Made by a program: the position numbers and the translations under genes
Part shown: positions 40,666 to 48,550 of the stretch, piece by piece
Position numbering within the stretch: the first letter of the stretch is position 1
Layout: every line of letters starts with the position of its first letter
Notes under the pieces: generated by a model
The model's input: the letters and a program-made list of their open reading frames with translations, nothing else
Told to the model about the DNA's origin: nothing
The model's database searches: none
Source: Candidatus Gastranaerophilales bacterium
GTDB lineage: Bacteria > Cyanobacteriota > Vampirovibrionia > Gastranaerophilales > Gastranaerophilaceae
Length of the DNA stretch: 64,000 nucleotides
NCBI GenBank assembly: GCA_944324905.1
Contig: CALUYB010000004.1
Coordinates: 1-64,000, forward strand
Direction: 5' to 3'

Positions 40666-42987
40666 ATGCAAGTTATTCAAACTGTTAATGATACCATAAG
40701 AATACTCTTTAGTCCCATTGATGAGGACTTTAAACTGCTTGACTTTATTTTAGTGCAAGAAGCAGGAAATAAGTATTTAGCGCAAATTATTGAAATATAT
40801 GACGACAAATACGACGCTTCGCAAAATGTTGCAAGGGTAAAACTGTTTTTTAAAGTTAACGACAAAGGTGAAGTCTTTGGTTACGACCATTTTACACCAT
40901 CTAAAGAGTGTGAAATTAAAAAAATAAAACGCGATGAAATTTTAACTTTTATAAATGAAGGCAAAGAGTCTTTGACAATTGGTTTGGATTATCAAAACAG
41001 CGAACCTTTTGATATAAATTTAGACTTTTTAAAGAATAATCCGGTAATTTTTGCCGATAAAATTGAACATTCTAATAACATAAGCAAACACCTTGCCTGC
41101 GCCCTTTCAAGGTACAATAAGCATAGTGTTATTTTTGATTTCAGTGGAACGTTAGAAATTAAAAACGCAAAAAAATTAGTCTTAACTAAAGACATTAAGT
41201 TGCCACTGGATTTTTACACAATTAATTACATTTGGGAAAAAGGTCTTGCCACAGCATCGCTTGAAACTCAAGCGATTTGCCGAGAAATTTTTAACGAAGT
41301 GCAAACTTATGCAAAAAATATACCTGATGGTTTTATACCTTTTAATAAATTTTTAAATGTTGTTAATACTCAATATAAAGCAACACCTATTACTGAACTT
41401 ACAGTTCTTGTAAACAAACTAAAAGGCTACCAACAAGAAAATATTTTTGCAAGCAAGAAAAAAGATTTTGAAGGCATTGAAAAATCCATTAAAGAAAACG
41501 AAATAACAATATTAGATTTTTCAGAGCTAAAAACAACTTGGCATAAGGAATTTTGCGAGTTCGTAATAAGAAAAATCAAAAATGCTTTTATTTTTGCCAG
41601 ATTAAATGAAACAAATACAGACAGTGATTTAATTAATTTCATTTATGACAAAAATCCTGATATTTCATTTATACCAAGCATTTCCTATAATTTTTCAAAA
41701 ATGCCACATATAATTGAGCGCGCAAATAACTATATACTTTTACCAACGCTCAACCCAAGGCGTGATTTTGGTGCAGCTAATTTTGAATTATCATCCATGT
41801 CACAAGACGAGTGCATTTTATTTGGCAAAGATACTGAAAACTTTATTTTTACAATAAAAAATGACAAATTTTTAGACTCTGAAGATGACGACAATAAAAT
41901 TAAAAAAACTATAAAATTAAAATTTAATGAAACTAAAGAAACATTAAAAGAAAAGTTTAAAAATCATAACCCTGCAAGAAACATTGAAAACAGTCAAATT
42001 CAAGACCAAATGCCAACTGAAGAAGAACTGGAGTTTTTTGAACAATTAGAATTTGAAAATGTAACGGAGGATGAAAAAATCCCCGTAAAAAAGCCTGATG
42101 AAAGTAATGTGGAAAAACATTACGAAGAAGAATTTTTAGAAGAACAAAACATTGAAGAAACTGAAAATATCATTGAGGAAGAACCTGTTGAAGTTGAAGA
42201 AATTGAACAGGAAGAAACTATAGAAACACCCTCTTATGAAGACAAGCAGGATGATTTAATAATTATAGAGGAAGAACCTGTTGAAGTTGAAGAAATTCAA
42301 GATGAAATCGAACTTGAACCTGTTGTAGATGAGCAAATAGCTGAAGAAAAGCCTATTGAAGCTAAAGAAATTACAACCGTAACAGAAGATTTTGAAGAAG
42401 ATGAAAATATTGCTGAAGAAAATGCAAATGAAGTTCAAGAAATTGAAACAATAGATGAACCGACAGAAACAATTGTTGAAGAAATTACCGCTAATGAAGA
42501 ACCTGTTGTGACAAAACAAGAGGAAATACAGGAAGATAAAGCTGTTTTTCAAAATATTTTAGAAGAAACTCAAGAAGATGAGGAAGAAGAAACCCTTTCA
42601 CTTGAGGATATTGCAGCACAGTCTATTGAAGCAGCTTTTAGTGAAGTAATTGAAAACAAAAGTACAAGCACCAAAGAAGAACCCCAAAAAGATGACAAGG
42701 GCAAACTTGTAGTAGATGAAAATGTTGTAATTGACCTGGAAAAAATAAAAGAACATATAGATACTGAAAATGGCAGCGAATTGCCCATATTTAAAAATAA
42801 AACAGAAAAAAAAGAGAGCTTTAATTTTAAAGTAGGTGATAAAATCAAGCATGACAAATATGGCGCAGGGGAAATAACAAAAGTTATAAATTACGCTAAT
42901 CGTTCGCTTTTGCAAATTAATTTTAAAGATGTCGGAAAACGCCTTTTAGACCCAAATATTGCAAATATTAGAAAAATTGAAGAATAA
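40666..42987 (+). CDS. Degenerate HerA-like protein with acidic linker and Tudor-like tail
   Basis: Protein of 773 aa in three parts. Residues 1-95 resemble a HAS barrel (IRILFSPIDEDFKLLDFILV, VARVKLFFK). Residues about 115-420 follow the HerA/FtsK-like ATPase pattern, but the P-loop position reads IFADKIEHSNNISK without GxxGxGKS/T. The Walker-B-like VIFDFSGTLE remains. Residues about 425-700 are a very acidic low-complexity linker with repeated EEEPVEVEEI units. Residues about 718-773 are a UvrD/CarD-like Tudor fold (FKVGDKIKHDKYGAGEITKV). A DNA- or RNA-polymerase-linked role is possible; it probably cannot hydrolyse ATP at the usual site. Confidence 0.6.
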   Translation: MQVIQTVNDTIRILFSPIDEDFKLLDFILVQEAGNKYLAQIIEIYDDKYDASQNVARVKLFFKVNDKGEVFGYDHFTPSKECEIKKIKRDEILTFINEGKESLTIGLDYQNSEPFDINLDFLKNNPVIFADKIEHSNNISKHLACALSRYNKHSVIFDFSGTLEIKNAKKLVLTKDIKLPLDFYTINYIWEKGLATASLETQAICREIFNEVQTYAKNIPDGFIPFNKFLNVVNTQYKATPITELTVLVNKLKGYQQENIFASKKKDFEGIEKSIKENEITILDFSELKTTWHKEFCEFVIRKIKNAFIFARLNETNTDSDLINFIYDKNPDISFIPSISYNFSKMPHIIERANNYILLPTLNPRRDFGAANFELSSMSQDECILFGKDTENFIFTIKNDKFLDSEDDDNKIKKTIKLKFNETKETLKEKFKNHNPARNIENSQIQDQMPTEEELEFFEQLEFENVTEDEKIPVKKPDESNVEKHYEEEFLEEQNIEETENIIEEEPVEVEEIEQEETIETPSYEDKQDDLIIIEEEPVEVEEIQDEIELEPVVDEQIAEEKPIEAKEITTVTEDFEEDENIAEENANEVQEIETIDEPTETIVEEITANEEPVVTKQEEIQEDKAVFQNILEETQEDEEEETLSLEDIAAQSIEAAFSEVIENKSTSTKEEPQKDDKGKLVVDENVVIDLEKIKEHIDTENGSELPIFKNKTEKKESFNFKVGDKIKHDKYGAGEITKVINYANRSLLQINFKDVGKRLLDPNIANIRKIEE

Positions 42988-43010
42988 CGAGTTTTTATAA
43001 AAACTCGTTA
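42985..43010. terminator. Perfect 26-bp palindrome spanning both convergent stop codons
   Basis: The sequence 42985-43010 is its own reverse complement (arms TAACGAGTTTTTA). The TAA at one end is the stop of the 40666 gene, and the TTA at the other end is the stop of the convergent 43008 gene. As RNA it folds into a hairpin with an AT-rich upper stem but without an outside T run. Confidence 0.7.
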
Positions 43011-43919
43011 CTTCATAAATTCATTTAAATCAACAAATTCAACTGCTTCTTCAATTGTGTCAAAGGTGTGAATTATATTATTTAAAAACACAAAGTTTAA
43101 AGCCTTTTTAACATCTTCGCAAGGTTTTACCAAAATAAATAAGCCGTCTTTTTGGGAAGTTGCCTTGTAAACATCTGCAAAAATACTTGCATATCTGTCA
43201 GAAAATATTTTTATATGTTCAAGGTTAAATATAATATTGGGCTTACCTGTTAAAACGTTTGTGGTCGCTTCTTTTAAAATCTTATCAAGGTATTTTTCGT
43301 TATTAATCTTATAAATTGTCATTACACAAATAGTGTCATTTATGTAATACTTTTGGAATTCTTCGTTAATAATTTTATTTGTAGAATTTGAAATAAATTT
43401 CAAAATACCTTCATGCCACTGTGGTTGCTTTGGTATAAACTCGTCCACCCCGCATTTGTAACACTCTTGAATCATTTTAGTGTCATCTGTACCTGATATA
43501 ACAATTAATTTGAAGTCCTTTTCGCCTTCATTTTTAATTTTATTTGCCTCGCCAATAAGTTCAAAACCATCCTTTGCATCAGGTAAAAACAGGTCTATAA
43601 TTAAATAATCAATTTTTTTCTTTTTAAGCTCAGTGAGGGCTTCTTCTTTATTCCTTGCAACATAAACATTCATGCCGATTTTTTTAAGCATAGAAGTCAA
43701 CTGATAAATGGATAATTCCATATCATCAACAATAAGGACATTTATGCTCTCTGCCGTAAAAAAGCTCAGGGGATAGTTAAAAAAGTTTAACTTTCTCTCA
43801 AGAGCAATAAGCGCCCTTGAGACTGTTTCAGAGCTTTCAATTTCAGGGTTAACATCAATTCCTGAAAGTTTTACCAGATTTAAATACTGGTCATGAGTAA
43901 GTTTAATTTCATCTTCCAT
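43008..43919 (-). CDS. REC-STAS fusion response regulator
   Basis: Protein of 303 aa. A helical N-terminal part (1-57) precedes a complete receiver domain: acidic D65/D66, phospho-acceptor D109 (DYLIIDLFLPD), S142 (VISGTDD) and K164 (FIPKQP). Residues about 195-300 look like a STAS domain (GKPNIIFNLEHIKIFSDRYASIF), the fold of anti-sigma factor antagonists, with the switch serine region altered. There is no DNA-binding output, so it should act by protein contact. TATAAT lies 7 nt before its ATG without a Shine-Dalgarno sequence. Confidence 0.75.
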   Translation of the reverse strand: MEDEIKLTHDQYLNLVKLSGIDVNPEIESSETVSRALIALERKLNFFNYPLSFFTAESINVLIVDDMELSIYQLTSMLKKIGMNVYVARNKEEALTELKKKKIDYLIIDLFLPDAKDGFELIGEANKIKNEGEKDFKLIVISGTDDTKMIQECYKCGVDEFIPKQPQWHEGILKFISNSTNKIINEEFQKYYINDTICVMTIYKINNEKYLDKILKEATTNVLTGKPNIIFNLEHIKIFSDRYASIFADVYKATSQKDGLFILVKPCEDVKKALNFVFLNNIIHTFDTIEEAVEFVDLNEFMK

Positions 43920-45604: not shown

Positions 45605-46474
45605 ATGAAAAAAATACTTACTAATTTTTTAATAACGGCTTTAATATTTACACTTTGCGGCTTTAGCGCACAGGTAATATCAGCTCCTGCCCTGCCTCTT
45701 GCAAGTCACCTTTCAAAAATTGAAAATGACCTGTGGGGTTTTGAATATTCAAATGACACAGAAAGTGACAGGATAAGCAGAATAGAAAAAAATGTTTTCG
45801 GGCAAGCAAATACGAGTGATACCATAGAAAAAAGAATAGAAAAAATAAATAACGCGCTGGGTATTGAATCGCAAAAAGAAGCTCAAAGCAGCGCAGGCGA
45901 GCTAATGCAAGAGGAAGTTGACGGCGTGAGCTACCCTCAGGTTGACCAGCTGGAGCTAAAATTATTTTCAAGAGTTTATGACAAAGAAAATATATATAAA
46001 CGCCTTGAAAGATTAGAAAAAAAGATATTTGGCTCTCCTCAAGAAGGTGATCTTGCCTCAAGAACAGATAAATTAAAGGGTTATTTAAATATAGATACTA
46101 CCCCAAAAACTGTTTATACAAGAGAAGATACAATGCAAAGCTATCAAAACCCCTCAAGGGCATATGATGGCTACAATGAATATGACTCATATAATTCTGA
46201 TATGGGCATACAAATTTCAGGTCTTGAAAACTCGCTTTTTGGCAAAACATTTTCTCAAGACCCAATCGGTTTAAGGCTAAACAGGCTTGAGAGAAAAATT
46301 TTCCAAAGAGATTTTTCAACCGATGATGATTTATTGCGTATGCAAAGACTGCAAGCTGCAGCAAGTGCGAAAAGAACTGCAAAATATTACGATATGAACA
46401 AGGCGCAAAAATTCACATCGACAGGCTTGCAAATAGGTACATTAATTCTTATGATACTTGCGATGATATTATAA
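45605..46474 (+). CDS. Secreted repeat protein with LExxxFG motifs and C-terminal anchor
   Basis: Protein of 289 aa: signal peptide (ITALIFTLCGFSAQVISAPA), then a recurring pattern. Each unit has LExxLFG, a variable loop of about 15 residues, and RLxRLEKKIFG. Visible copies are at HLSKIENDLWGFEY, RISRIEKNVFGQ, VDQLELKLFSRVY, RLERLEKKIFGSP, ISGLENSLFGKTF and RLNRLERKIFQRD. A final hydrophobic segment (GLQIGTLILMILAMIL) may anchor it. I do not recognise a named family. It precedes a large TPR protein. Confidence 0.65.
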   Translation: MKKILTNFLITALIFTLCGFSAQVISAPALPLASHLSKIENDLWGFEYSNDTESDRISRIEKNVFGQANTSDTIEKRIEKINNALGIESQKEAQSSAGELMQEEVDGVSYPQVDQLELKLFSRVYDKENIYKRLERLEKKIFGSPQEGDLASRTDKLKGYLNIDTTPKTVYTREDTMQSYQNPSRAYDGYNEYDSYNSDMGIQISGLENSLFGKTFSQDPIGLRLNRLERKIFQRDFSTDDDLLRMQRLQAAASAKRTAKYYDMNKAQKFTSTGLQIGTLILMILAMIL

Positions 46475-46516: not shown

Positions 46517-48550
46517 ATGGATAAGAAATTAACAAAAACTACGGCAATATCGCTCATTTTAGCTCTTACGCTAAGCAGCAATTTATGTTTTGGCGCAATG
46601 ACCAAAGAGTCGATGAAATTATACAAAAGCGCGCAAAAGTTTGAATCGCAAAACAGGTTAAAAGACGCTATTGACCTTATGGAAAAAGCTCTTGCAACAT
46701 CACCTGATGATATAACACTAAATACAAAACTTGCAGGGCTATACTCCCAAACAGGTGACTACGACAAAGCGCTTAGCGTTTACCAAAAAACACTAAGGCT
46801 AAAACCTGACGATGGCTTTTTATATATTAGTATAGGCAATTTGCTAGAGCAAAAAAATGACTACGAAAATGCTCTTTATTCTTACAAAGAAGCACTTTCG
46901 CTTATGCCTGATTACAAATATAATTATTTAAACATTGCAAACGTTGAATATATTTTAAAAGATTATCCAAACGCAATAAAAGACTATAAAATATTTTTAT
47001 CCCAATACCCTGACAACTCGCAAGCTGCAACAAACTTGGCAACTTGCTATTTAGACAGCAAAGATTATAAAAGCTCAATTGAATCTTTTGAAAGCGTAAT
47101 AAAAGAAAATCCATCAGACTTTAAGGAATGGGGCAGCTATGGACTTGCACTTTTAAGGGACAAAAAATATAGCGAAGCAAAAGATGCCTTTGAAAAAGCT
47201 GTTAAAATAAACTCAACAGACTACACATCCTACGGTAACCTTGCAGTGGTGCAGTCTTATTTGAATGAAAACGAAAACGCTTATGCCAATTTTAATAAAG
47301 CATTTGAACTTGAGCCCAACCTTACTGTCCTAAAATTTGACTATGCAGCACTTTTAACAAGAATGGGCAAATATGATGAGGCAATTGTCGCATACAACGA
47401 CTACCTTAAAAAATACCCGAAAGATACAAATGCTTACTTGAACCTTGGTATTTTATATAAAGGAACTCAAAAACCAAAAGAGGCAATTGCAGTATTGCAA
47501 AAGGGTGTAAAGCTTGATGTAACAAATACTGATATGAAAAACGAGCTTGGCAAAAGCTATTTTGAAAACAAAGAGTACGAAAAGGCAATAGTTGTATACA
47601 ACCAAATACTTGCGCAAAATAAAGGCAACTTACAAGCCCTATTCAACAAAGCTCTTGCGCTACAGGGTTTAAAAGAATTTAAAAGAGCTGAAACAATATA
47701 TTTGGCACTGTCAAAGGAACCTGTTGAAAACCTTTCAAAATACAAGCTTGAATATCCAAATATTCAAAAAGCACTTGCATCAAATTATATAGCTTGGGCA
47801 AATTACTATAACACCAAAAAAGACTATAAAAACGCAAAAGAAACATATGCTAAAGCCCTTGCAATCAATCCTGATAACACTAATGCCTATAAGGGTCTTG
47901 CAAAAACATATGAAGATATGGGCATAAAAGACCTTGCCGTAGAAAATTACGAAAAAGCAATACAAATTGAGCCTGAAAACGCCGAGTTGTTTATGAGCTA
48001 TGGCGAAACACTTGAGCATTTAAATGATTTAGAACAAGCTCAGGGCGCATTTTCAAAAGCTATTGAGCTTAACGATAAATCAAGCGAGGCTTATGTTTTA
48101 TCAGGCGATAATTATTTAAAACAAAAGAATTTTGATAAAGCAATAGAACAATACAAAAAAGCACTTGAGCTAGATAGCGAAGATGACTCAATTGCAATAA
48201 AAATAGGTAATTGCTATAAGTATTCCAATGAAAATACAAAAGCAATGGAGTATTACACAAAGACTCTGGATATTAACCCTGTAAACGAAAATGCTTACTT
48301 TAACATTGGGTTAATTAATTACGAAAACGAAGATTACAGTGAAGCAATTGCAAACTTTTCAAAAGCTATAGAGTTAAAAGCTGATTTTGCTTATGCTTAC
48401 TGGGGTTTAGGCTCATGTTATGAGATAATGCACCAACCAAAAGATGCTATTTATAACTACGAAAAATATACAGAATACGCGCCTGACGAGGATTCTAAAG
48501 CCAAAGCTCAGGAGAAAGTAGACGCGCTGTACAAAGAACTTGTTAAATGA
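46517..48550 (+). CDS. Secreted TPR-repeat protein (677 aa)
   Basis: Signal peptide (ISLILALTLSSNLCFGA) and about 15 to 17 consecutive TPR units, such as DKALSVYQKTLRLKPDDGFL, EAKDAFEKAVKINSTDYTSY, EAIVAYNDYLKKYPKDTNAY, DLAVENYEKAIQIEPENAEL and EAIANFSKAIELKADFAYAY. The units are canonical and dense, forming a long solenoid for protein binding, probably in the periplasm. It overlaps the following lipoprotein gene by 4 nt (ATGA), and that gene overlaps the next, so three genes are coupled. Confidence 0.85.
   Translation: MDKKLTKTTAISLILALTLSSNLCFGAMTKESMKLYKSAQKFESQNRLKDAIDLMEKALATSPDDITLNTKLAGLYSQTGDYDKALSVYQKTLRLKPDDGFLYISIGNLLEQKNDYENALYSYKEALSLMPDYKYNYLNIANVEYILKDYPNAIKDYKIFLSQYPDNSQAATNLATCYLDSKDYKSSIESFESVIKENPSDFKEWGSYGLALLRDKKYSEAKDAFEKAVKINSTDYTSYGNLAVVQSYLNENENAYANFNKAFELEPNLTVLKFDYAALLTRMGKYDEAIVAYNDYLKKYPKDTNAYLNLGILYKGTQKPKEAIAVLQKGVKLDVTNTDMKNELGKSYFENKEYEKAIVVYNQILAQNKGNLQALFNKALALQGLKEFKRAETIYLALSKEPVENLSKYKLEYPNIQKALASNYIAWANYYNTKKDYKNAKETYAKALAINPDNTNAYKGLAKTYEDMGIKDLAVENYEKAIQIEPENAELFMSYGETLEHLNDLEQAQGAFSKAIELNDKSSEAYVLSGDNYLKQKNFDKAIEQYKKALELDSEDDSIAIKIGNCYKYSNENTKAMEYYTKTLDINPVNENAYFNIGLINYENEDYSEAIANFSKAIELKADFAYAYWGLGSCYEIMHQPKDAIYNYEKYTEYAPDEDSKAKAQEKVDALYKELVK

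Follow-up and report, generated by a model that had tools for sequence, protein, structure and literature searches.

What can a protein laid out like the DNA translocase HerA still do once its ATP-binding site is gone? This question is raised by an open reading frame at 40666-42987 on the forward strand of the window (the whole 64,000-nucleotide stretch of DNA analysed here), which starts with ATG and encodes 773 amino acids. HerA is a hexameric DNA translocase, that is, a DNA-pumping enzyme, and inactive P-loop NTPases are known. The host belongs to the Gastranaerophilales, an order of non-photosynthetic relatives of cyanobacteria, and its genome (99.5% complete) carries a single copy of the gene. 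A degenerate HerA/DUF87 region occupies residues 1-405 of the protein; after an acidic linker (406-712) comes a UvrD/PcrA-type Tudor domain (721-771). Judged by its sequence, it is very probably a dead HerA variant, conserved across the order and fused to a UvrD-type docking head. The features are as follows.

40666..42987, + strand: whole gene, 773 aa, with predicted degenerate HerA core, acidic linker and UvrD-type Tudor domain
40666..40920, + strand: predicted N-terminal beta barrel, aa 1-85, collinear with the HerA barrel
40927..41880, + strand: degenerate HerA/DUF87 ATPase core, aa 88-405, assigned from PDB profile, DUF87 matches and hhalign
41053..41079, + strand: lost P-loop slot ADKIEHSNN, aa 130-138, aligned with AGTGSGKS of active HerA
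41128..41148, + strand: VIFDFSG, aa 155-161, HerA strand-2 motif, D158 98% conserved
41596..41622, + strand: lost Walker B region ARLNETNTD, aa 311-319, EEAH in active HerA
41881..42801, + strand: acidic linker, probably disordered, aa 406-712, 35% D/E, net charge -79
42013..42045, + strand: short acidic-hydrophobic motif PTEEELEFFEQ, aa 450-460, family form LTEDDLNFI
42778..42792, + strand: short motif ELPIF, aa 705-709, family form [VIL]P[VIE][YF]
42826..42978, + strand: UvrD/PcrA-type Tudor domain, aa 721-771, PF21196 2.7e-7, model pLDDT 81
42934..42954, + strand: GKRLLDP, aa 757-763, K758 aligned with the RNAP/UvrB-contacting lysine of PcrA

A first-pass annotation had read a HerA-like layout into the N-terminal part, and profile comparisons bore this out. 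The family profile searched against the PDB retrieved Sulfolobus HerA (4d2i, E 7.7e-7) across the P-loop region. DUF87 matches were obtained for 13 of 59 orthologues (best 2.4e-9); several orthologues passed the PF01935 cut-off in whole-genome searches, and the window protein itself fell below it. An hhalign comparison of the family with a pooled profile of ten HerA proteins of the class gave a probability of 97 over 415 columns. When HerA subgroups (one to four sequences each) were compared singly, the probabilities were only 0.7-42, so that the end-to-end alignment rests on the pooled profile and does not resolve the nearest HerA subfamily. The profile-profile alignment passes through the barrel region, where the structure model is of low confidence and strands are predicted, with low to medium confidence, at residues 2-7, 10-15, 23-32, 35-40, 60-64 and 70-74.

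Structural comparison pointed the same way, on a poor model. Residues 1-410 were modelled with a mean pLDDT of 57.8, because the input was restricted to genus-level relatives (67-92% identical). The top Foldseek match of this model was 8wiv, a HerA-domain protein (E 0.036), and no match reached E 0.001; in a second comparison the first four rows were HerA entries (Z 5.9-6.8, with 4d2i at 6.8), all matches having a Z below 8 and thus below the level that convinces by Z alone. The nearest solved structures are HerA, but on a low-confidence model. Descent of residues 1-405 from HerA is supported by the profile search, the DUF87 matches and the pooled alignment. Like HerA/DUF87 (PF01935; 4d2i), the 773-aa family has a RecA-like core behind a barrel, which in its case is predicted, with homology over about 400 residues; it differs in lacking Walker A, Walker B and QRP motifs, in its shorter core, and in the added acidic linker and Tudor domain.

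Examination of the active site confirmed the suspected loss of the P-loop, ADKIEHSNN standing where active HerA has AGTGSGKS. An intact Walker A in orthologues had been named as evidence against this reading, and the pattern GxxxxGK[ST] was found in none of the 97 distinct orthologues (first 450 residues). Walker B ([DE]EAH) was likewise found in 0 of 97 over the same residues, and the QRP motif after Walker B is gone in the alignment with active HerA. The motif VIFDFSG, earlier taken for a Walker B-like element, was misassigned: it aligns with the strand-2 D-x-H/N-G-E-Y motif of HerA. At the sequence level the residues for ATP binding and hydrolysis are lost, so DNA translocation is not expected. 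Genus-level dN/dS comes to 0.03-0.06 in the core, 0.26-0.41 in the linker and 0.07-0.15 in the Tudor domain (two ratios were not computable because dS was saturated). The values for the core show that the gene is no decaying pseudogene, and strong purifying selection on a core without catalytic motifs argues that it is kept for a function independent of the canonical ATP site. A search of the open-access literature found no description of a HerA that lacks its whole active site and is a single-copy gene conserved throughout an order.

The distribution of the gene follows the order closely. A query made of the first 445 residues matched 76 of 98 genomes: 76 of the 81 Gastranaerophilales genomes searched, counting the own genome, and 0 of the 17 genomes from other parts of the class. 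A profile search of the phylum matched 107 of 244 genomes, all 107 inside the order, and no match lay outside it among the genomes listed, 117 non-matching genomes being unlisted. Five genomes of the order gave no match to the query; one of them (G042) has a gene fragment at a contig end. Two others, G054 (99% complete) and G034 (95% complete), lack the gene through loss or an assembly gap.

The linker had been described as very acidic and 270 residues long. The acidity held (35% D/E, 9% K/R, net charge -79) and the length did not, being about 300 residues. Across the family, linkers are poorly alignable and range from 86 to 920 residues (median 292); their D/E content is 32%, and their net charge has a median of -81. 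Two short motifs recur in them: LTEDDLNFI-like sequences are present in 56 of 88 linkers, where composition-preserving shuffles give 1.5, and [VIL]P[VIE][YF] in 82 of 88, where shuffles give 5.3. These patterns were picked after inspection of the sequences, so the contrast with shuffles is descriptive and not a test. The second motif nearly always stands 15-23 residues ahead of the point where the analysed segment ends, at a near-constant distance from the Tudor domain. Given the variation in length and the conserved short motifs, the linker looks like a tether carrying docking peptides.

For the tail, described earlier as UvrD C-terminal/CarD-like, only the first half of the description stood. 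The sequence scores 30.8 bits against Pfam PcrA_UvrD_tudor (PF21196, curated cut-off 23.9) and 16.3 bits against CarD_TRCF_RID (PF02559), below the cut-off of 23. A tail profile searched against the PDB matched UvrD/PcrA-type helicase chains only, and the solved structures nearest to the tail model (pLDDT 81) are the UvrD and PcrA Tudor domains of 7egs, 5dma and 9dqs. The best match is the UvrD Tudor domain on the E. coli RNAP lobe (7egs, E 9e-5); the crystal structure of the UvrD Tudor domain on UvrB (7egt) is also among the matches. The RNAP-interaction domains of CarD and Mfd gave weaker matches, sharing a similar small beta fold with a tail whose sequence is under their curated cut-off. 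Taken together, HerA ancestry, lost P-loop, acidic linker and UvrD-type tail survive from the first-pass annotation, and the Walker B site, the CarD assignment and the linker length do not.

The tail resembles the Tudor domains of UvrD and PcrA (PF21196; 5dma, 7egs, 6yi2) in a sequence score above cut-off, in fold and in a basic residue at the K727 position. Position 758 is K or R in 87 of the 89 orthologues with an alignable tail, by alignment only, and K758 aligns with the lysine of KRLL in the PcrA Tudor domain (5dma). We infer that this lysine is the K727 of PcrA from B. subtilis, a number reached by counting from the C-terminal end that a primer in PMC8318588 specifies; K727 is a contact residue for RNAP and UvrB, where it meets the glutamate of TGE (PMC8318588). 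In PcrA, too, a flexible linker precedes the Tudor domain (PMC8318588). The 773-aa protein differs from UvrD and PcrA in that its Tudor domain is joined to a degenerate HerA core and not to a helicase, through a strongly acidic linker of about 300 residues.

Which partner might such a tail contact? The PcrA Tudor domain binds a TGE hairpin, the "helicase interaction motif", both in UvrB and in RpoB, where the hairpin is part of the SI1 insert (PMC8318588). In RpoB of the own genome (G000 contig C4:74514-77621, L155-L158; the gene is outside the window) the chain continues without an insert where SI1 would be. No RpoB of the order, among 29 sequences searched, has the TGE-hairpin motif, and RpoB profile matches show a gap at about 210-295 in every sequence of the order complete there. 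UvrB of the own genome, in contrast, reads IDSVTGEVL, an exact match to the motif; among 30 UvrB sequences of the order, the motif stands exactly as published in 22, and [ST]GE occupies the site in 28. Retention of [ST]GE in UvrB and absence of SI1 from RpoB favour UvrB over RNAP as the likelier partner of the Tudor domain. The UvrD of the own genome, however, carries a Tudor domain of its own. The motif in UvrB may owe its retention to that UvrD and is thus no proof of partnership.

On these grounds we tentatively propose, with somewhat less than even confidence, that the protein is a non-translocating, HerA-derived scaffold whose tethered docking heads gather repair proteins. The predicted barrel and the core, keeping the order of HerA elements without the residues for ATP binding and hydrolysis, would not translocate DNA; they most likely still assemble, possibly into a HerA-like ring on DNA, and the assembled core would serve as a static platform. 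Long, acidic, flexible arms would extend from it, each with two short motifs and a UvrD-type Tudor head at its end. The heads would capture TGE-hairpin proteins, most plausibly UvrB, and the platform may thereby concentrate nucleotide-excision-repair factors or set the access of the cell's UvrD to them. Among the roles suggested earlier, a hexamer scaffold is thus the most plausible, the hexamer itself being putative. In favour of the scaffold are HerA ancestry by profile, DUF87 matches and pooled alignment, with HerA leading the structural comparison; the loss of both catalytic motifs in 97 of 97 distinct orthologues; strong purifying selection and near-universal presence in the order; a Tudor domain of UvrD type by sequence and fold that keeps the contacting basic residue; [ST]GE in 28 of 30 UvrB sequences together with 7egt; and the conserved linker motifs. 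Against it stand a UvrB motif that may serve only the cell's own UvrD, the lack of a neighbourhood link to repair genes, and the poor 1-410 model with matches of Z below 8. A bolder form, in which the order turned a DNA-pumping ring into a static multi-head ring that organises excision repair on DNA without ATP, is conceivable and rather doubtful. Either way, a UvrD-type docking domain on a dead HerA offers a concrete, testable partner, and the SI1-less RNAP of the same order a natural test of which targets UvrD-type Tudor domains have when the polymerase site is missing.

An RNAP adaptor had also been suggested and is unlikely. In such an adaptor the Tudor domain would dock on the beta subunit, and the HerA-like core would connect polymerase with DNA or further partners. 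The best structural match of the tail is a Tudor domain on an RNAP lobe (7egs), the K727-equivalent basic residue is retained, and solved structures show the Tudor-like domains of CarD and Mfd bound to RNAP at a different site. The known SI1 TGE-hairpin site (PMC8318588) is nevertheless missing in the own genome and in 29 of 29 order-mates, which disfavours an adaptor working through the known contact.

It is less probable still that the protein is mainly a competitor of UvrD, occupying UvrB and other motif-bearing proteins and so restraining the helicase. Free PcrA Tudor domain competes with full-length PcrA in vitro (PMC8318588), and the own-genome UvrD has a Tudor domain of its own; a competitor, however, would need no conserved 400-residue HerA-like core at a dN/dS of 0.03-0.06. 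Similarly improbable is a structural protein unrelated to repair, such as a nucleoid or division organiser, whose role is set by the conserved linker motifs and not by the Tudor domain. A SepF match in 6 of 59 members (best 0.0024) is too weak to count in its favour, and a cursory search found no membrane or division features.

That the protein is still an NTPase with an unconventional site is very hard to credit: D158 of strand 2 is 98% conserved and G106 and a KLPL motif are conserved in the family, but 97 orthologues have neither Walker A nor Walker B, and QRP is gone too. The earlier idea of a DNA mimic found no specific support and is scarcely credible, since a net charge of about -80 is set against linkers of 86-920 residues that align poorly, evolve at a dN/dS of 0.26-0.41 and carry conserved short motifs.

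Known HerA systems were also considered. The own genome has no HerA match above the family cut-off and no NurA, and 57 genomes of the order gave one weak partial NurA match (G067); a HerA-NurA resection pair is therefore unlikely. The 773-aa protein matched none of the PADLOC defence families, those of anti-phage HerA included, and nothing in a phage-family library.

Gene neighbourhood was rejected as a guide to function, because gene order is conserved in the genus only. The neighbours encode a glycosyltransferase, a response regulator with a STAS domain and a phosphomannomutase-family enzyme; repair genes have no neighbourhood link to the gene. The receiver-STAS fusion (43008-43919, - strand) is convergent with the 773-aa gene and 85-98% identical across the genus. 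Further along, 45605-46474 (+ strand) encodes a 289-aa protein whose weak GpsB match covers only 16 residues and may reflect just a coiled coil, and 46517-48550 (+ strand) a TPR-repeat protein with about 16 repeats. In other families of the order, a family of 153-aa proteins (L078:3077-3538 and relatives) lies directly upstream of the gene at five loci.
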